Positions 2,349-33,470 of a stretch of 44,676 nucleotides of DNA are shown here, piece by piece. The notes beneath the pieces were generated by a model. It was not told where the DNA came from. It saw only the letters and a list, made by a program, of their open reading frames with translations, and did not search any database. The stretch comes from Nostoc sp. TH1S01 (GTDB lineage Bacteria > Cyanobacteriota > Cyanobacteriia > Cyanobacteriales > Nostocaceae). The stretch covers positions 1 to 44,676 of the forward strand of contig JAGKSW010000062.1 in NCBI GenBank assembly GCA_018993265.1, in the 5' to 3' direction. Each line of letters opens with the position of its first letter. Position 1 is the stretch's first letter. The position numbers and the translations under genes are program-made.

Positions 2349-3554
2349 CTACGGTGACGCAGAGCGTACACCGTAGGCTTCCTGCCCAACAGAAAGCGTG
2401 ACAGTGGATTTCTTTCGTCCTCCCTTGACACGACTTACATCTGGGCGACAGGCTTTGTCCCCCGTTCCAGAGGTCAAAATTCGTAGTCCCTCATCTCTGA
2501 GGTTAATGCTTGCGTTTACATCTCTATCATGCCTAGTTTGGCAATTTTCACAAGTCCAAAATCTTACATCAAGCGGTAAACTGCCAACCTGATTAAGACA
2601 CGCATGACAGGTTTTTGAACTGGGAAAAAACCTATCAACTTCAAGATAAATTTTCCCTGACATTTCTGCCTTGTATTTTAACATGGTGCAGAACATTCCC
2701 CAACCAACTTGATGTATAGATTTGGCTAGTTTATGGTTTTGCATCATGCCTTTAACGTTGAGATTTTCAAGCACTATAACTTGATTTTCGTTAACTATCC
2801 TACGAGATAGCTTGTGCAGGAAATCTTCACGGCAGTTAGTTATTTTTCTGTGAACTCTAGCAACTTTTTTTCTAGCTTTATTTCGGTTATTAGAACCCTT
2901 CTGTTTTCTAGATAGCTGCTGTTGTTTAAGTTTTAAATTCTTTTCGTGCTTGTTCAGTGTTCTAAGATTGTCAAATTTTGAACCATCACTTGTAACAGCG
3001 AAGTGGTTTAATCCCAAGTCAATACCTATCGCTTTACCTTCTGTATTTGAGCTAGGTTTATCTTTGCCATCGTCAAAAAGAATTGCTGCAAAGTATTGAT
3101 TAGAATAGTTTTTGGATATGGTTACGGTTTTGATTCTTCCTTCAATCTGTCTATGGATAATTGCTGTTACATCTCCTATTTTTGGGAAGGTTACACAATT
3201 ATCAGCAACTTTGACATTTTGAGGATATTGTATTGACTGCTTACCATGCTTTGATTTGAATGTGGGGTATTTAGCTCTTTTTTCAAAGAAGTTATTGAAT
3301 GCTACCCCAAGATTTAAACAAACTTGCTGTAAACATTGTGAGTAAGTTAGTGTTAACCACTCATGCTCTTTCTTTAACTGGGGAATTATCTTTTTAACTT
3401 CGTATCCAGATAAACCCTTACCTGTCTCTTTATATGTTTGGTTCATCAAGTTCAAACAATAATTCCATAACCAGCGACAACTGCCAAAAGCTTGCGCTAG
3501 TAACTGCTGCTGTTGGACATCTGGATATAACCTGACTTTGACGACTCTTAACAT
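2349..3554 (-). CDS. tnpB: TnpB, RNA-guided nuclease of an IS200/IS605-family element
   Basis: A 401-residue TnpB starting at the ATG at 3552-3554 (MLRVVKVRLYP, the usual TnpB N-terminus); an in-frame upstream extension to 3659 lacks family character. The fold is complete: an N-terminal helix-turn-helix-like region, RuvC aspartate D179 in GIDLG, glutamate E263 in VLENL, a zinc ribbon with C316, C319, C335 and C338, and the last RuvC aspartate D345 in HDRDVNAS. TnpB proteins are RNA-guided DNA endonucleases that help retain their transposon. No tnpA (Y1 transposase) lies nearby, so this is a solitary, IS1341-like unit that would need a transposase in trans. All catalytic residues are intact, so it may be active. 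Confidence 0.93.
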   Translation of the reverse strand: MLRVVKVRLYPDVQQQQLLAQAFGSCRWLWNYCLNLMNQTYKETGKGLSGYEVKKIIPQLKKEHEWLTLTYSQCLQQVCLNLGVAFNNFFEKRAKYPTFKSKHGKQSIQYPQNVKVADNCVTFPKIGDVTAIIHRQIEGRIKTVTISKNYSNQYFAAILFDDGKDKPSSNTEGKAIGIDLGLNHFAVTSDGSKFDNLRTLNKHEKNLKLKQQQLSRKQKGSNNRNKARKKVARVHRKITNCREDFLHKLSRRIVNENQVIVLENLNVKGMMQNHKLAKSIHQVGWGMFCTMLKYKAEMSGKIYLEVDRFFPSSKTCHACLNQVGSLPLDVRFWTCENCQTRHDRDVNASINLRDEGLRILTSGTGDKACRPDVSRVKGGRKKSTVTLSVGQEAYGVRSASP

Positions 3555-3680
3555 ATTAGAGTGAACAACGTTTGTTATAAAAGAGCATAACATAAGAATT
3601 GCTAGTTTCCTCCATATCTTCCTCCCTTGCTGTCGCATCGGTCGGAAGATTGTCGTCAACTAGCCTGTCATTCATCTCGT

Positions 3681-6457: not shown

Positions 6458-7978
6458 TCAGTCGCTTGGTGCAAGATATGTGGATAGATAATTTAATGGC
6501 AACGTGACTGTAAATGTGCTACCAACACCAGCTTGACTGTTAATGCTGATTTGACCTTGATGAGTTTCTACGCACTTTTTAACGATTACCAATCCTAACC
6601 CTGTACCGGGAATTGATTGGACATTGGAAGCGCGATAAAATGATTCAAATATTCGGTCTTGATCGGCTTCTGGGATACCAATTCCTTGGTCTTGAATGCG
6701 AAATATAGCTGATTTTTCCGTTAGGTCGCAAGTTAAATCAAATGATATATTGCCGCCTGCTGGAGAGTATTTTACAGCATTATTTAGTAAATTCGTAAAT
6801 ATGTAACGTAATAGTTGTTCATCCATGCAGGCATCGGTGCGATCGCTATGACAGGTAAAAATAATTTCTGTTCCTCTGGGATGAGTTGTGCTAAATTCTG
6901 CCAGTAATTCTTGACAAAATTCTTTCAAATCCAAGGAAGTCGGATGACACTCTAATTTACCTGCATCTGATTTACCCATGAACAGCATATCTTCCATGAG
7001 TTGCTTCATGGATTGCAGCGCACTATTAATTCGCTTTATGTAAGTGTTTCTTTTCTCGGCGGTTAAGTTTTCTCCTTGCAATTCAATCAATTCTACTGAG
7101 GATTGAATCACACTTAAAGGATTGCGAAATTCATGAGAGACAGTAGAAATAAACAGCGATTTAAGTTTGTTAACTTCTCGTTCTTTATGCAATGCTTGTT
7201 CGAGTAATTGTGCTTGTTGCCGTTCACTGAGATCCCAAAACACAACGACTACACCATTAATTTGTCCAGGCTGGCGCATAATTGGAGAAGCACTATCACC
7301 AATAGGTACTCTGGAGCCATTTTTCCTAATCAGTGATGTAAAGTCATCTAAATATACAACTTGTCGCTCTCTTAAGACTCTGGCTACAGGATTTTCTAAT
7401 GAAGTCTCTGTGACTTCATCAACTAACTGAAAAATTTTCGAGATATCTTTCCCCAAAGCATCTGCTTGTTTCCAACCAGTGATTAACTCCGCCGCCGGGT
7501 TGACAAATGTGACAATTCCTTTTTCATTGGTGGCAATGACAGCATCACTCATTGAGTTGAGAAGCGTGGCTAATCGGTCTCGATTTTCTCGTAAGTCGCG
7601 TTCTAATTCGTGTTTTAATAAACCAATTTCAATCGCGATCCGCAAATCTTTTGGCGTGAATGGTTTAATGACGTAGCCAAATGGTTGAGTAGCTTTTGCT
7701 CTGTGTACTGTATTATTATCAGCGTAAGCTGTCAAAAAAATTACGGGTATATCTAACTGCTCACGAATTAGAGATGCTGCTGTAATTCCATCCATGTCAC
7801 CTTTTAAGATGACATCCATTAAAACTAATTCTGGTTTGCTTTCTAAGGCTTTAGCAATGGCAACTTGTCCAGAAGAAGCTGTACCGATTACTGTATATCC
7901 TAGTTGACTTAGTTGGTTAGCAATGGTTCTGGCAACTATGACTTCATCTTCAACAACTAAAATTCTCACTTGCTCCAT
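6458..7978 (-). CDS. Hybrid response regulator-histidine kinase (REC-PAS-HisKA-HATPase_c)
   Basis: A 506-residue signalling protein. An N-terminal receiver domain (1-120) has the acidic pair E10-D11, phosphoacceptor D55 in LVLMD, T83 and K105. A PAS domain follows (about 131-255: LATLLNSMSDAVIAT through GVVVVFWDLSERQ), then HisKA with phospho-His H282 in STVSHEFRNP, and HATPase_c with the N box NLLNNAVKYS (396-405), DQGIGIP and GTGLGL. Because the receiver precedes the kinase core, phosphorylation by another kinase would control this one's activity. The obvious partner is the kinase encoded just upstream (8-bp gap, same strand), which ends in a HisKA_2 transmitter. No DNA-binding domain is present in either protein, so the final output is elsewhere. 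The protein has no membrane segment. Confidence 0.93.
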   Translation of the reverse strand: MEQVRILVVEDEVIVARTIANQLSQLGYTVIGTASSGQVAIAKALESKPELVLMDVILKGDMDGITAASLIREQLDIPVIFLTAYADNNTVHRAKATQPFGYVIKPFTPKDLRIAIEIGLLKHELERDLRENRDRLATLLNSMSDAVIATNEKGIVTFVNPAAELITGWKQADALGKDISKIFQLVDEVTETSLENPVARVLRERQVVYLDDFTSLIRKNGSRVPIGDSASPIMRQPGQINGVVVVFWDLSERQQAQLLEQALHKEREVNKLKSLFISTVSHEFRNPLSVIQSSVELIELQGENLTAEKRNTYIKRINSALQSMKQLMEDMLFMGKSDAGKLECHPTSLDLKEFCQELLAEFSTTHPRGTEIIFTCHSDRTDACMDEQLLRYIFTNLLNNAVKYSPAGGNISFDLTCDLTEKSAIFRIQDQGIGIPEADQDRIFESFYRASNVQSIPGTGLGLVIVKKCVETHQGQISINSQAGVGSTFTVTLPLNYLSTYLAPSD

Positions 7979-7986
7979 TGGAAATA

Positions 7987-10137
7987 TTACTGCAAAATTA
8001 ACTGGGGAAATTGAATTGTAAAGGCTGTACCATGATTACGTTCTAAAATAATGCTGCCTTCAAGCTGTGCTGTAACTAAGTCATAAACTAGGGATAAACC
8101 TAAAGAACTACTATTATTCCAATCTAAATCATTTGGTATCCCAACACCATTGTCTTGAATAGACATTTCGATATAATTCTTAATATTTTGTAAAGTAATA
8201 ATTATAGTTCCCTTTTGCTCATTGGGAAAAGCGTGTTTCAGGGAGTTAGAGATTAATTCGTTAATAATCAAGCCGCAAGCGATCGCTTGATCAACATTCA
8301 GACTAACTGCGGCAATATTAGTTTCTAAGTCAATTCTTTCCAGTCCGATTTGGTAAGACATTAAAATACTAGTTGCTAAACTTTGGATATAGTCAACTAC
8401 ATCTAATTGCCCAATATTAGGTGAAGTGTATAAGTTTCTATGAATTAATGAGATCGAATCAATGCGATTTTGGCTATCTTGAAACACTCTAATAACTTCT
8501 GGATCTTTGAGAGTGAGAGATTGGAGTTGTAATAAACTTGAGACAATTTGTAAATTATTTTTAACGCGATGATGTACTTCTTTTAAGAGAATTTCTTTTT
8601 CTACCAAAGCACTTCGCAATTGTTTTTCGGCTTTTTGCCTTTCTACTAATTCAGTTTGGGCTTGCTGAAACATGCTAGATTTTTGAATAGCGATCGCAAT
8701 CGTCACAGAAAGTTGATCCAGCAAGTCTAATTGATTTTCTTCCCATTCCCGTGGACTAGAACATTGATGAGCCACCAGTAAACCCCAAAGGCAAGCGCCA
8801 GTGTTGTCTCCACCTACTTCTAATAAAATAGGTACGACTAAATTAGCCTTGACTTCAAATTGTTCTAATAACTGAATATGACAATCTGTAAGTCCGGCTG
8901 TGTAAATATTAGCGATCGCTCGTTTCCGCCCATGATAATACTCTACTCCTGCCCCTGTCTGAAAACAAGTATCTTCAATTTGCACACCTAAAGATGGTGT
9001 CCATCCCGCTTCGACTGATTCTGCTACAACTTTACCACTCATATCAGGGGCAAATTGATAAACAATTACTCGCTCGACTTGCAGCAGATGTCGTACTTCT
9101 TGAACTGTAGCATTGAGAATATCTTGCAAATTCAAAGATTGGTGAATTCGCTGCACCACAGTTCGCACTAATTGTTCTCGTTCTAACTGTGTCTTTAAAG
9201 CTTGCTCTGCTTGCTGGCGATTTGTAATATCTTGCCCAATATTAATGATTTCGCCATTAGGCAGTCTAATATTCGTCCCAGATGTATCTACAATTATGCC
9301 ATCGCGTACTTGAGCTTTAAAATCATCCTTGGTTTGGGTTGCTGATTTATTTTGCTCCTTCAGTTGTGTTTCTGTATTTTTGCGTTCGGTGATGTCAGAT
9401 AATACAGCTAACATAGCTGGCTCACCATTAAAAGTTAAAGGATGGAGTGAAGCAATAGCCCAAAACTTAGTTCCATCTGCTCTTTTGAGGAGGATTTCAT
9501 AGTTATGCAATGAGCCTTGTTTTTTTAGTTCTGTTGCTAGATTGTGAGACTCGGCTATATCGTGATAGATATCTGCAACTGGACAATTGATAACCTCTCC
9601 TGACGCACAACAAAAGGCTTGGAAAAATTTTTGATTAGCATTCACAATTAAACCATCAGATAACCGAGAAATCATTAACGGCACGGGAATAATTTCGGTA
9701 AATGTGTGAAATATTGCTTCATTTTCTAAAATATTTGGCTCTATTTCTATTTTTTTGCACTTGCTAATGTCTTGAACATACACTAAATGAACATTTTTAC
9801 CTTGATACTCGATGGTATGTGTGACTGTTTCAACATCAATACAACTGCCATCTTGGCAATAATGTTGACATTGGTCATGAAATTTTAAACTATTATGGTT
9901 CTTGCTTAAATTTTCTAAAAAAACAAACTGATAGTTTACATGGTAAATATCAGTAATCTGCATTTGCAAAAATTGAGATTTGGAATAACCATACTTACTA
10001 ATTGCAGATTCATTAACATTTAAAAATTTTAGACTCTCTTTATCGTATATCCAAATCGGAGTAGGATTATTATTGAATAGGAACTCATCATTCATACAGT
10101 TATTAACATCTTTTGAGATAAAATTAATAAATTGCAA
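7987..10137 (-). CDS. PAS-PAS-PAS-GAF histidine kinase with cyanobacteriochrome-type GAF
   Basis: A 716-residue soluble sensor kinase. PAS domains lie at about 20-125 and 140-255, with a short third PAS-like piece near 276-305. The GAF domain (about 335-490) has the DXCF motif D389-T-C391-F and a second cysteine C419 followed by H420, inside GLTDCHIQLLEQFEVKANL. The 28-residue spacing equals that of the two bilin cysteines of DXCF cyanobacteriochromes (TePixJ Cys494/Cys522). LWGLLVAHQCS and PREW follow, as in phytochrome-type GAFs. The transmitter is HisKA_2 (KEVHHRVKNNLQ, H523), with ATP-binding NELISNSLKHAF and DNGVGIP. Likely output is the REC-first kinase gene 8 bp downstream. The frame opens with TTG at 10137; the ATG at 10095 (Met15) is an equally plausible start that keeps all domains. 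Bilin binding is inferred. Confidence 0.9.
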   Translation of the reverse strand: MQFINFISKDVNNCMNDEFLFNNNPTPIWIYDKESLKFLNVNESAISKYGYSKSQFLQMQITDIYHVNYQFVFLENLSKNHNSLKFHDQCQHYCQDGSCIDVETVTHTIEYQGKNVHLVYVQDISKCKKIEIEPNILENEAIFHTFTEIIPVPLMISRLSDGLIVNANQKFFQAFCCASGEVINCPVADIYHDIAESHNLATELKKQGSLHNYEILLKRADGTKFWAIASLHPLTFNGEPAMLAVLSDITERKNTETQLKEQNKSATQTKDDFKAQVRDGIIVDTSGTNIRLPNGEIINIGQDITNRQQAEQALKTQLEREQLVRTVVQRIHQSLNLQDILNATVQEVRHLLQVERVIVYQFAPDMSGKVVAESVEAGWTPSLGVQIEDTCFQTGAGVEYYHGRKRAIANIYTAGLTDCHIQLLEQFEVKANLVVPILLEVGGDNTGACLWGLLVAHQCSSPREWEENQLDLLDQLSVTIAIAIQKSSMFQQAQTELVERQKAEKQLRSALVEKEILLKEVHHRVKNNLQIVSSLLQLQSLTLKDPEVIRVFQDSQNRIDSISLIHRNLYTSPNIGQLDVVDYIQSLATSILMSYQIGLERIDLETNIAAVSLNVDQAIACGLIINELISNSLKHAFPNEQKGTIIITLQNIKNYIEMSIQDNGVGIPNDLDWNNSSSLGLSLVYDLVTAQLEGSIILERNHGTAFTIQFPQLILQ

Positions 10138-10258
10138 TTGCTATTAAAACTATTTTGGATTTTTGTTAATAGTTAGAATTGAAAATGATTAGGTCAGATA
10201 GATTGCTGAGAATGTTATAATATACCTATTAGATATTTAACAGCTTACGAGAGATGAG

Positions 10259-10290
10259 AACACAGAGATTGTAAGTAATCTCTGTGTTTT
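10259..10290. terminator. Hairpin between sagB-like and kinase genes
   Basis: Perfect 12-bp arms AACACAGAGATT (10259-10270) and AATCTCTGTGTT (10277-10288) with a 6-nt loop, followed on the plus strand by TT. It lies just past the stop of the minus-strand nitroreductase gene, so it probably ends that transcript and insulates the kinase operon, although the T-run is on the opposite strand. Confidence 0.5.
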
Positions 10291-10301
10291 GATAGTTTGT
10301 T

Positions 10302-11891
10302 TTATCTTGGTCTTCCTAATGTCGTAATGTAGATTACAGCTTCATCAGTAGGAATGCATAAAACTTCATTTACTTGATCATCAAAGAACCCACCGATACC
10401 GCTAACACCCAAATTCAGATTAATTGCGGCTAAATTTAAGCGTTGACCCAAATGACCAGCATCCATGTGTAAATAACGATAAACGCGATCGCCGTACTGA
10501 GTAATGGCAGCTTTGAGGTCTGCGGTATGAAATACAACCGCAGCAGCATCTCTGCCTAAATCTTGACCCAAACACAGAAAGTGTAACTCACGCCGGAAGT
10601 TTTTAAATCGAATCTGACGTAATTCTTGAGCTTTGGGTGCGTAATAATAACAACCAGATTCTAAGCCTTTGACTCCACTCACCGCAATAAATGTTTCAAT
10701 TAAGTTGAGGTCAAAGTAGTCAGGATTCCTGTCAAGATGTTGGTCAATGTAATTTTGGGGTTGGTAAGTGAAATCCAGTAAAGCTTTTAGTTCATCAAAG
10801 GTTAAATCATCACCACTGTAAGCACGGGTAGAACGGCGCTTGTGAATGGTGGCTTCCAAACCGGAAAGATTTTCATCCCAGTTAATTGGTGTAGTAGCTG
10901 TGGGAATTTTCAGACAAAAAGGAAAATTATATTTGTCTTCCAAAGACTTTTCTTGTTTGATGGCGGGTAAATTCAGCTTGCCGGTGATACCTGATTGAAT
11001 TTGGGTGTGACGATGGAAATACTTCAGCAACTCACCGTCAGGAATGTGGGGATAGTTAGTTTCCGTCGCCGAAGGTAAAGCAGTACATCCTGTAGGCAAA
11101 TTTTGTTTGATATCTAATAAGTCTGCCATCGCCAGAACAGCGATCGCACCTTCTTGCTGCGGATCAATATATAACAAATCATTGACCGCATCATCAACAA
11201 AACCGCCAATTAAGTGTGGACGGTAATCAGTAATTGCACTTGCTAACTCAATATTCCCTAACAAATGCCCTGTATCGAGAAAAATTCGCCGATAAGCCCG
11301 ATCTTCATATCGCCAAGCCGAACGATAAAATACCGCAGTCACCACAATTGCCAATTGGGTACCTTCTAAAGCAGGGTGCCAAAAACAAGCATCTTGCAAA
11401 GCTCGCCACACATCATTTTCCCAATACAGCATCAGTGAATGAGTGCGACACTGATAGTTATAAAGTCCTGCTGGGAGGAAAGGTGTACCGCGAGAAACCA
11501 CATACACCTCTGCGGGATACAACCCGCCAGCACTGGGTGCAGAACGCAAATACACCGCACTACCCATAGAAGGCATTCTGGCAGTTAATCCGTAGCTACG
11601 AAACAGTAATCGAGACAGCCTTTGCCACCATTGAGCCTCTGGTTGAGCAGCAAGGGGTTCTAATGATTCTTGCAGGTAAGGTTTGAGATCAAAAGCCGAG
11701 CCAATTTTATATTCTTTAAAAGGTACTGGCTGTTTAGCCCAGTCTAGCCTTTGATTTTTCATGGCTAGAGTTTCAGGGTCATATTTAGTACGTTCGTGGT
11801 AGTGCTGAGCAATAGATTGGTGTATTTCTGGCATAGTACTTGCAATACCCTCAGGGCTTTCCTTTTTGATCTTGGCATTCATCTGGCTCAT
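10302..11891 (-). CDS. SagB/ThcOx-family tandem nitroreductase
   Basis: A 529-residue protein made of two nitroreductase-fold halves. The first carries RSAPSAGGLYPAEVYVV (about 116-132) and ends near FVDDAVNDLLYIDP. The second begins near residue 350 with KRRSTRAYSGDDLT and ends with GIGGFFDDQVNEVLCIP. This duplicated layout is typical of cyanobacterial SagB/ThcOx proteins, FMN-dependent dehydrogenases known from oxidation of azolines in ribosomal peptides such as streptolysin S. No YcaO cyclodehydratase, transporter or precursor peptide is visible nearby, so a natural-product role is not supported here. It starts with ATG at 11889-11891 and is probably monocistronic, with an 821-bp gap upstream. 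Confidence 0.85.
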   Translation of the reverse strand: MSQMNAKIKKESPEGIASTMPEIHQSIAQHYHERTKYDPETLAMKNQRLDWAKQPVPFKEYKIGSAFDLKPYLQESLEPLAAQPEAQWWQRLSRLLFRSYGLTARMPSMGSAVYLRSAPSAGGLYPAEVYVVSRGTPFLPAGLYNYQCRTHSLMLYWENDVWRALQDACFWHPALEGTQLAIVVTAVFYRSAWRYEDRAYRRIFLDTGHLLGNIELASAITDYRPHLIGGFVDDAVNDLLYIDPQQEGAIAVLAMADLLDIKQNLPTGCTALPSATETNYPHIPDGELLKYFHRHTQIQSGITGKLNLPAIKQEKSLEDKYNFPFCLKIPTATTPINWDENLSGLEATIHKRRSTRAYSGDDLTFDELKALLDFTYQPQNYIDQHLDRNPDYFDLNLIETFIAVSGVKGLESGCYYYAPKAQELRQIRFKNFRRELHFLCLGQDLGRDAAAVVFHTADLKAAITQYGDRVYRYLHMDAGHLGQRLNLAAINLNLGVSGIGGFFDDQVNEVLCIPTDEAVIYITTLGRPR

Positions 11892-12712
11892 TATTTCACT
11901 CTAGTCAGCATGACTAGATTTTATGAATCCCTACTGTAGTCTAGGGGATTAGCGATTAGCCAAAAGTCAATTTTGAGCGATCGCATCCACTAATTTATTA
12001 AAAAATAGATTAGCGACTTTAGCCATCAGCTAATATCCAGTCCGGTTAATTAGTTAGGACTTACGCACACAGTTTGTCTGTGCAGATTGGGTGTATGCTT
12101 CGACTGCGCCCTTACCTCGACTTCGCTCGGTACAAGTCGGCTACGCTCATGACAAGCTCAGTAACCAGGGTGTGAGGGTAAGCTATTGAGCACCTAATTT
12201 GCAGTTTAGACCACAGGGGAGCTTCAGGTGCTTAAGGTGCAGAGGAGAGAAATTCACGTTTTTCCCTAAATTCATCATGTGCAAGTTAAATGCCTAATAG
12301 CTGACTTTACTATTGCCTCGCCACTACTTAATCTTGATTTCGTCTTTAGCTTTAAGACTTTACCATTAATATAACTTTTGATAGATGCTAATTGACTTAA
12401 TTATATATTAAACAGAAAAATTATAACTATCAATGTTTGTATCTTTTGGTATATAGCTAATTATTACAACTAAATATAAACTTAATATATCGGCTAGAAT
12501 CCTACTTAAGTTAATACTAATCACGGGTAAGCACAGATCAAATATCGGTGTTTATCTGGTTACTTCAAAATAATTTTCTCCTAAAAAATATAAATAATTT
12601 TTATTAGATGCCAAAAATAAGTTTTTGCTGAAATAAGCAGTAGTCTGAAAGATAAAATGTCAGAATGCTAGGGTAAAGGCAAACTTATTTTCTCAAGTTT
12701 GAGGAAAGTGCT
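11892..12712. other. 821-bp intergenic region with dispersed repeat
   Basis: No gene was recognised. The right 400 bp is very AT-rich and should contain the aldolase promoter. Near the middle, AGGACTTACGCA at 12056-12067 is one end of the MITE family seen at 789, 23631 and 24536, but no matching right end follows. It is joined to a repeat containing CTTCGACTGCG and CTCAGTAACCAGGGTG, a close relative of which occurs at 19472-19500. Confidence 0.6.
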
Positions 12713-29354: not shown

Positions 29355-32150
29355 ATGTTAAAACTCTTGTTGGGCGATCCCAACGCTCGTAAGCTGAAAA
29401 AATACCAACCTTACATCACGGAAATTAATCTCTTAGAGGAAGAAATTAAAGCTCTCTCTGATGAGGAATTAAAAGGTAAAACCGGAGAATTCCAACAGCG
29501 TCTCGCTAAAGGCGAAACTTTGGATGACATCTTACCAGAAGCCTTTGCCGTGGTGAGAGAAGCAGGACGGCGAGTCTTAGGGTTGCGGCACTTTGATGTC
29601 CAGATGTTAGGCGGTATCATCCTGCACACTGGGCAAATTGCGGAAATGAAAACTGGGGAAGGTAAAACCCTGGTAGCAACCTTGCCCAGTTATTTAAATG
29701 CTCTCACGGGTAAAGGTGTACATGTCGTGACGGTGAACGATTACCTCGCTCGTCGGGACGCAGAGTGGATGGGACAGGTGCATCGCTTCTTAGGGTTGAG
29801 TGTGGGACTAATTCAGGCAACGATGACTCCCAGTGAACGCCAGAAGAATTACGAATGCGATATTACTTACGTTACCAATAGTGAAGTCGGCTTTGACTAC
29901 CTGCGCGACAACATGGCCACTTCAATGGCTGATGTGGTGCAACGTCCGTTTAACTATTGTGTCATCGACGAAGTAGACTCGATTCTCATTGATGAAGCAC
30001 GGACACCACTGATTATTTCTGGTCAGGTAGAAAGACCAACAGAAAAATACTTACAAGCTGCGGAAATTGCTCTAACTCTGCAAAAAGATGACCATTACGA
30101 GGTAGATGAAAAAGCTCGTAACGTGTTGTTGACCGATGAAGGCTTTGCGGAAGCAGAACAGTTATTAGGTGTCACAGATTTATTTGACCCGGAAGATCCT
30201 TGGGCGCATTTTGTGTTTAATGCCATTAAAGCCAAAGAACTGTTCTTAAAGGATGTCAATTACATCGTCCGTAATGGCGAAGTGGTAATTGTCGATGAAT
30301 TTACCGGACGGGTGTTACCGGGAAGACGCTGGAGTGATGGTTTGCACCAAGCCATTGAAGCCAAAGAACACGTAGAAATTCAGCCAGAAACCCAGACTTT
30401 AGCGACAATTACTTACCAAAACTTGTTCTTGCTGTATCCCAAATTAGGCGGAATGACGGGAACAGCGAAGACCGAAGAAGCTGAGTTTGAAAAGATTTAC
30501 AAACTAGAAGTGAGTGTCATTCCGACAAACAGAGTCAGAAGACGACAAGATTTGTCGGATATGGTCTTTAAGACAGAGGCGGGTAAATGGCAAGCGATCG
30601 CTAGAGAATGTGCCGAAATGCACGAACTTGGTCGCCCTGTACTCGTAGGAACCACTAGTGTAGAAAAGTCAGAATATCTTAGTCAACTGCTGAAACAAGG
30701 CGGCATTCCCCACGAATTGCTCAACGCTAGACCAGAGAACGTGGAACGGGAAGCGGAAATTGTCGCACAGGCAGGACGCAGAGGTGCTGTTACCATTGCG
30801 ACAAACATGGCGGGTCGAGGTACAGACATCATCCTCGGCGGTAACTCTGAATACATGGCGCGGTTGAAATTGCGGGAATATTTCATGCCGCGCATCGTCC
30901 AGCCCGAAGACGAAGATGTGTTTGGCATCCAAAGGGCCAGCGGTAGTATGCCTAGTGGACATGGCGGTGGTCAAGGTTTTACACCTGGGAAAAAAGTCAA
31001 AACTTGGAAAGCTTCACCAGAAATCTTCCCCACCCAACTGTCAAAAGAAACAGAAAAATTGCTGAAAGAAGCAGTTGATTTTGCAGTGCGGGAATATGGC
31101 GATCGCAGTTTACCAGAACTAGAAGCTGAAGATAAAGTTGCGGTAGCTGCCGAAAAAGCACCCACCGCCGACCCAGTAATTCAAAGATTGCGGGAAGCTT
31201 ACAACCGGATCAAACATGAGTATGAACAGTTCACAGACAGCGAACACAATAACGTTGTCGAACTGGGTGGCCTGCACGTAATTGGCACAGAACGCCACGA
31301 GTCACGCCGCATTGACAACCAGTTGCGGGGACGTGCTGGTAGACAAGGCGACCCTGGTTCCACCAGATTCTTCCTCAGTTTAGAGGATAACTTGTTGCGG
31401 ATATTTGGTGGCGATCGCGTCGCTGGTTTAATGAACGCCTTCCAAGTCGAAGAAGATATGCCTATCGAGTCGGGAATGCTTACTCGCAGCTTAGAAGGCG
31501 CACAGAAAAAAGTCGAAACTTACTACTACGACATCCGTAAACAAGTATTTGAGTACGACGAGGTAATGAACAACCAACGTCGCGCCATCTACGCCGAACG
31601 TCGTCGGGTATTAGAAGGGCAAGACTTAAAAGAACAAGTCATCAAATACGCCGAAAAAACGATGGACGACATCGTTGACTACTACATCAACCCAGATTTG
31701 CCCTCAGAAGAATGGGAATTAGAAAAACTGGTTGAGAAAGTCAAAGAATTCGTCTACTTGCTCTCAGATATGCAAGCAAGTCAGCTAGAAGATATGTCTG
31801 TCACTGAGATTAAAGCATTCCTCCACGAACAAGTGCGAATTGCCTACGACATGAAAGAAGCGCAAATTGACCAAGTTCAACCCGGACTGATGCGCCAAGC
31901 CGAACGCTTCTTTATCTTGCAGCGCATTGATACCTTGTGGCGTGAACACCTGCAACAAATGGATGCTTTACGCGAGTCTGTAGGCTTGCGTGGTTATGGT
32001 CAAAAAGACCCGTTGATTGAATATAAGAGCGAAGGTTACGAACTATTCCTCGATATGATGGTCAACATCCGTCGAGATGTAGTTTACTCCTTGTTCATGT
32101 TCCAACCCCAGCCTCAGCCAATGGTGCAAACATCATCTGAAATGGTGTAG
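29355..32150 (+). CDS. secA: Preprotein translocase ATPase SecA
   Basis: A 931-residue SecA, the motor that drives preproteins through SecYEG at the plasma and thylakoid membranes. Walker A is [13 protein letters not shown] (GEGKT 101-105), followed by the DEAD-type [15 protein letters not shown]. The preprotein-crosslinking region is present, then [28 protein letters not shown], the arginine finger region [18 protein letters not shown], and the helical scaffold and wing domains. A cyanobacterial/plastid-type insertion ([20 protein letters not shown], about 534-553) lies before the second ATPase half. The C-terminal zinc/SecB-binding tail is absent, as usual in this group. ATG start at 29355. 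Single gene with a long upstream region. Confidence 0.97.
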
Positions 32151-32366: not shown

Positions 32367-33470
32367 ATGAAAAGAATAGAAGTCGAACAAAGAACCATTT
32401 TGATTGGTTTAGCTGGTAGTCACGGTTATGGGTTAAATCGTCCTGACTCAGATTTTGATTTCCGGGGTGTGTTTATTGCACCGAAAAAATATTATTTGGG
32501 CTTTGATAATATCGAACAAAAGGATACTGGTTGGGATGAACCAGGCATATTTCCGTTTATTGATGGGAATAAAGATACGGTTATCTACGAATTAAGAAAA
32601 ATCCTGCAATTATTAGCAGGGGCAAATCCTAATGTTTTGGAATTGCTATGGTTACATAAATATCCTGTATTAACTGAAGTTGGTCAATATTTAATTAAAA
32701 ATAGACATTTATTTTTGACCAAGAAAGTTAAGCATACTTATTCAGGTTATGCTTTTGCTCAAATCAAAAAGATGGAAACCCATCGTAAGTGGTTATTAAA
32801 TCCACCACAAAAGCAACCATTACCTGCTGATTTTGGTATAGAAGGTGAAGAACCACTTAGTAAAGATGAGTTAAATGCTTTTTTGGAGTATTTGTATCTC
32901 TTAATTAGAGGGCGAATTGAATTTTTAGCAGAAGCAGAACAATTATATCAATTACTAACGGCAGATATTGATTTTAAAGGTGTGTTGAAACAACATACTT
33001 TACCTAATGAAACTTTAGAATATACAGAAAAATTAACTCATGGTCGCAAAGACTTTATTAGACTATTACAAAAAAGTCAAAGCTACCAAATTGCGTTGCG
33101 AGAATGGAAAGCATATTTATCTTGGCAAGAAAATCGCAATCCAGTTAGAGCCGAAATGGAAAGAAAGTCTGGATTTGACCTCAAACATGGAATGCACTGC
33201 ATTAGATTACTTCGTAGTGGCTTAGAAATATTGCAGCGAGGAGAATTAATTGTTGATAGAAGAATGGCAGGCGATGTTGATGATTTAAAAGCCATTCTCA
33301 AAGGCGAATACTGTTATGAACAAGTGATGCAAATGGCAGAAGATTTAGTAGCACAAATGGATGTTGTCTATGAAAAATCAACTTTGCCTGCTAAACCTGA
33401 CTTAGAAAAAATTAATGAACTATGTATAGAATTGGTGGAAATGCAAGGATGGAGTTATACCAATTCTTAA
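32367..33470 (+). CDS. RlaP-like nucleotidyltransferase (pol-beta fold)
   Basis: A 367-residue protein with a DNA-polymerase-beta-type nucleotidyltransferase core: GLAGSHGYGLNRPDSDFDFRG at the start, in which G17-S18 and D29/D31 are the expected nucleotide- and metal-binding residues. A third acidic position is likely near DTVIYELRKILQLLAGANPN (about 70-90). This layout matches the RlaP/PF10127 group, proposed to act in RNA repair or end modification, often near RNA ligases. No ligase or other repair gene is next to it here. The C-terminal half is helical. ATG start, no obvious ribosome-binding site, monocistronic. The reaction is inferred from the fold. Confidence 0.8.
   Translation: MKRIEVEQRTILIGLAGSHGYGLNRPDSDFDFRGVFIAPKKYYLGFDNIEQKDTGWDEPGIFPFIDGNKDTVIYELRKILQLLAGANPNVLELLWLHKYPVLTEVGQYLIKNRHLFLTKKVKHTYSGYAFAQIKKMETHRKWLLNPPQKQPLPADFGIEGEEPLSKDELNAFLEYLYLLIRGRIEFLAEAEQLYQLLTADIDFKGVLKQHTLPNETLEYTEKLTHGRKDFIRLLQKSQSYQIALREWKAYLSWQENRNPVRAEMERKSGFDLKHGMHCIRLLRSGLEILQRGELIVDRRMAGDVDDLKAILKGEYCYEQVMQMAEDLVAQMDVVYEKSTLPAKPDLEKINELCIELVEMQGWSYTNS

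Follow-up and report, generated by a model that had tools for sequence, protein, structure and literature searches.

Genes and domains at the locus

The window, that is, the whole stretch of 44,676 nucleotides analysed from contig JAGKSW010000062.1 of Nostoc sp. TH1S01, encodes at 7987..10137 on the minus strand a sensor histidine kinase with the domain order PAS-PAS-(PAS remnant)-GAF-HisKA_2-HATPase_c. The frame comprises 716 codons, as an earlier note on this DNA had stated, and its first codon is TTG. Codon 15 is an ATG (10095) and is the likelier start because the frames of the relatives L063 and L088 open just 6 residues ahead of the Met that aligns with it; in L088 the kinase frame itself ends early. 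Pfam assigns PAS domain 1 (PAS_9) to residues 25-125 (9763..10065, minus strand, as are all parts of the gene), PAS domain 2 (PAS) to residues 140-249 (9391..9720), the HisKA_2 dimerisation/phosphoacceptor domain to residues 520-595 (8353..8580) and HATPase_c to residues 622-712 (8002..8274). The GAF domain, predicted from Pfam, alignment, tree and structure overlays to be that of a DXCF-type cyanobacteriochrome, lies at 8668..9135, and this earlier placement is correct because the Pfam GAF spans residues 336-484. A PHY domain was not among the Pfam families found in the protein. HisKA_2, which contains EVHHRVKNN, and HATPase_c score above their cut-offs (94.1 and 46.9 bits). The output had been described as HWE/HisKA_2, of which the HisKA_2 part holds; HWE_HK reaches 23.6 bits against a cut-off of 22.8, and the HWE label was rejected in view of the far higher HisKA_2 score.

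Eight bases downstream of the sensor kinase gene lies the gene of a probable partner, a REC-PAS-HisKA-HATPase_c protein (6458..7978, minus strand; Pfam and conserved adjacency) in which SHEFRNP and LVLMDV can be read. Upstream, a SagB-family dehydrogenase with two nitroreductase-type stretches is encoded at 10302..11891 on the same strand. Both neighbours recur among the 27 related loci obtained from a scan of named genomes. In 25 of them the partner gene adjoins the kinase gene downstream and shares its strand, and the remaining two, L086 and L088, reach the contig end at this point. The dehydrogenase gene is found upstream in 23 loci; L067 has too little upstream DNA, and none was found in the available upstream DNA of L073, L075 and L083. 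In L063 (Nostoc sp. LEGE 06077), the REC-PAS-HisKA gene is followed by an extra 773-codon frame (9923-12241), one stretch of which is 44% identical to the window kinase, unlike the window, where an exonuclease/phosphatase-family gene follows. Elsewhere the window encodes a TnpB-like transposon nuclease with OrfB_IS605 and Cas12f1-like TNB domains (2349-3659, minus strand), SecA (29355-32150, plus strand; 931 aa, four SecA domain models) and an RlaP-family nucleotidyltransferase (32367-33470, plus strand) with a weak AEP-domain match at residues 165-277 (24.4 bits, cut-off 23).

Two cysteines and a hairpin insert

The GAF domain carries the motif D-T-C-F at residues 389-392 (8962..8973, minus strand), with the second cysteine, C391, encoded at 8965-8967, and the canonical cysteine C419 (codon 8881-8883) followed by H420 (together 8878..8883, minus strand). 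The reading frame and the alignment agree with the earlier note on both motifs and on the distance of 28 residues between the cysteines. That note had also likened the pair to that of TePixJ, likewise 28 apart, and in the alignment C391 and C419 are each in register with the TePixJ cysteines.

The hairpin-loop extension EVGGDNTG, placed earlier at about residues 441-448, occupies residues 440-447 (8797..8820, minus strand; alignment) and makes the loop 7 residues longer than that of the paralogues. The insert is common to the loci L039-L053, and a similar one is present in RcaE; judged from these sequences, it is a family trait and not peculiar to the window kinase. Assignment to the insert-Cys cyanobacteriochromes was rejected since the loop sits after Cys-His and the neighbouring C449 is not kept in L039-L053; in the part of PMC5240096 consulted, the insert cysteine precedes the DXCF motif (C713 versus Y741 of UG1). 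The WXDXXL motif of the XRG red/green group is absent from the window GAF, which reads IEDTCF and has no Trp two places ahead of the motif Asp.

Placement among bilin-binding GAF domains

Of 113 GAF domains found in the strain's own genome, 112 were aligned and one short piece with a stop was dropped. A cysteine occupies the canonical column in 36 of the 112, and 19 of these 36 also have D-X-C; three of the 19 read DXCL and one has Cys-Tyr, and for C203 the canonical column differs between two alignments. The strict combination of DXCF and Cys-His occurs in 15 of the 112, the window GAF included. A further domain (G000:C127:24538-24972) has DYCF but lacks the canonical cysteine (VPHL there), hence the second cysteine minus the first, and shares its frame with three single-cysteine GAFs of the red/green group.

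A tree built without the motif columns from 111 own-genome rows and seven solved bilin-GAF references grouped the window GAF with all seven references (SH-aLRT 97). This was a quick tree in which about half of the branches are weak (52 of 115 open); in it the window GAF does not stand beside TePixJ, and the DXCF GAFs do not form one clade. The alignment and tree that the earlier note had proposed as a check thus place the domain in the bilin group and not with the non-bilin GAFs. Overlays of predicted structures match it to TePixJ and other bilin GAFs, and the genome has one member of the bilin-reductase family. The domain could nevertheless be a GAF that binds another ligand or none, its cysteine pair having arisen by chance. 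Neither the canonical cysteine nor D-X-C is present in 74 of the 111 own-genome rows, which comprise all 62 rows that fall outside the bilin group and 12 within it. In view of the bilin-group placement, the structural matches and the conservation of the cysteines described below, such a chance pair is highly improbable.

Conservation among relatives

Both cysteines are present in all 27 named loci. His follows the canonical cysteine in 26, with Tyr in its place in L087; 23 loci have T as the X of DXCF, and the others have K, L, M or S. That C391 is kept in every locus while the adjoining residue varies suggests selection on the cysteine. A search of 60 genomes, including that of the window, at a threshold of 1e-100 gave a match in 19, corresponding to 18 of 59 relatives; most matches came as two separate stretches, one over the C-terminal portion and one over the PAS portion. 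DXCF and Cys-His occur together in all 15 loci L039-L053 and in L054 and L055; L056 (REVF) and L062 (DTYL) are 45% identical over the match and do not keep the motif pair. The named and unnamed sets are not independent because some loci are the same contigs.

The register with TePixJ, the tree and the conservation in 27 of 27 loci give good support for a DXCF cyanobacteriochrome that signals into a HisKA_2 kinase, and the two-cysteine photoreceptor kinase suggested earlier gains strength from the same three observations. From sequence and modelled structure, the window protein is thus very probably a dual-cysteine (DXCF) cyanobacteriochrome histidine kinase.

Apparent partial loss of the third PAS domain

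Three PAS-type segments had been noted. Two are intact domains recognized by Pfam; the third is a remnant at about residues 264-308 (9214..9348, minus strand), where Pfam found no stretch and which was recognized by alignment to relatives. All eight aligned relatives have a whole third PAS ahead of the GAF, of which the window kinase lacks 64 residues in frame and retains the end alone; the loss was also compared as DNA against L063. It could be real or an assembly fault. PAS 2 is absent from L064 and L078 and PAS 1 from L080, so the PAS region tolerates loss, and four of the eight relatives have a long extension at the N-terminus that by eye resembles a GAF. The in-frame loss might weaken signalling in this strain, and one reading, compatible with the dual-cysteine kinase, is that a genuine DXCF photoreceptor gene is decaying or has been rewired here. 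Since the reading frame, the GAF and the kinase motifs are all intact and relatives dispense with other PAS domains, we consider decay or rewiring rather unlikely.

Paralogous GAF domains in the genome

Fourteen further GAFs of the genome carry the strict DXCF and Cys-His pair, and Pfam was run on their frames, except for the 185-codon C156. Among those scanned, C57, a kinase of 1583 aa, is the only other one on HisKA_2, and the idea that this output is unique to the window kinase was rejected on its account. C29, C42 and C241 are HisKA kinases with REC (C241 holds two strict GAFs), C132 and C55 HisKA kinases without REC, and C149 and C21 have HATPase_c with no HisKA match. C133 is a GGDEF-EAL protein, and C234 has three strict GAFs with no other Pfam match at 1e-5. 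Nearest in the tree are the GAFs of C29, C42 and C57, which are 62-65% identical to the window GAF and share both motifs but lack the hairpin insert. Their proteins differ from the window kinase in that C57 has REC ahead of the GAF and HisKA_2 at the end, and C29 and C42 have HisKA at the end plus REC domains (the best stretch alone was placed).

Predicted pigment and colour

Isomerisation of phycocyanobilin to phycoviolobilin is typical of DXCF GAFs but not universal. According to the part of PMC11284453 consulted, DXCF GAFs bind phycocyanobilin via the canonical cysteine, the second cysteine adds to C10 and moves absorption toward the blue, and typical members form phycoviolobilin, which is supported by Ile at one GAF position; in the proteins studied, isomerisation was lowered when Thr replaced Val. 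By residue counting, that Ile position would be occupied in the window GAF by Val455, where TePixJ has Ile and AnPixJg2 has Ala; this bulky residue hints at phycoviolobilin. T390 would, by such position matching, correspond to the isomerisation-lowering Thr of the same excerpt, and phycocyanobilin may therefore be kept in part. The residue hints are mixed, Val455 and the missing Trp speaking for isomerisation and Thr390 against it.

A blue-absorbing dark state is likely, and a change from blue to a green-to-orange state is somewhat favoured as the predicted colour pair. A teal-type colour was thought less likely, since Val370 occupies the beta-2 Phe position even though F427 is found at the helix position; we take these two columns to be colour-tuning by analogy with AnPixJg2.

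A putative light-signalling relay

C419 would bind phycocyanobilin, partly or wholly isomerised to phycoviolobilin, and in the dark C391 would add to C10 to give the blue-absorbing state. Blue light would break the C391-C10 bond and yield the longer-wavelength state. As gene order and motifs suggest, the photochange may pass into HisKA_2 and alter its autophosphorylation, whereupon phosphate may move to the REC domain of the downstream protein and tune that protein's own HisKA. The chances of this route from light to the partner's HisKA are about even. A broader proposal, a conserved two-kinase relay of Nostoc-like cyanobacteria in which the DXCF HisKA_2 sensor addresses the REC of a second kinase rather than a transcription factor and in which the PAS region is adjustable, is more tentative. 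If it is true, the complete or partial loss of PAS domains in different species would retune the coupling and leave the light sensor untouched. The light-sensing HisKA_2 kinase and the REC-PAS-HisKA protein form a testable pair in filamentous cyanobacteria. Across species the GAF stays constant and the PAS region varies, which offers a natural series on how flanking domains tune light signalling.

Comparison with known systems

The literature search returned no paper joining cyanobacteriochrome with DXCF and HWE and none joining it with dual sensor histidine kinase; PMC11164954 matched cyanobacteriochrome with HisKA_2, and the consulted parts of the papers on DpxA (PMC4937213) and on thermophile kinases (PMC9953108) have no bearing on the verdict. 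The blue/green GAF of TePixJ (PDB 4glq, 3vv4) is about 40% identical to the window GAF and shares with it both cysteines, the Asp and Phe of DXCF, Cys-His, the 28-residue spacing and the fold. The window GAF differs from it by T for P in the motif and F427 for L in the helix, and TePixJ carries the annotation of a methyl-accepting chemotaxis protein whereas the window protein is a HisKA_2 kinase.

By sequence, the best-scoring solved GAFs are PPHK (DQYF) and miRFP670nano (DRYF), the latter presumably derived from the NpR3784 lineage, and both are without a second cysteine. PPHK, the dual-sensor histidine kinase of Leptolyngbya JSC-1 (PDB 6oap), has the top PDB score and, like the window protein, is a histidine kinase (PMC11480761). 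The NpR3784 lineage has a similar GAF that also lacks the Trp of WXDXXL, and according to the excerpt of PMC11284453 it is without the DXCF cysteine; the window GAF has C391. These likenesses would suit a bilin GAF in which C391 forms no second bond and the photocycle is of the single-cysteine type, as in PPHK and the NpR3784 group, and the same excerpt cites a DXCF GAF whose second cysteine is replaceable with isomerisation retained. The retention of C391 in all 27 named loci in spite of the varying motif residue makes such a photocycle improbable and argues for the dual-cysteine kinase.

Predicted from its sequence to be a cyanobacterial light sensor of an established class, the window kinase is an unmistakable but unremarkable example. 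DXCF cyanobacteriochromes are well described, and the kinase adds a well-supported predicted photoreceptor to them.
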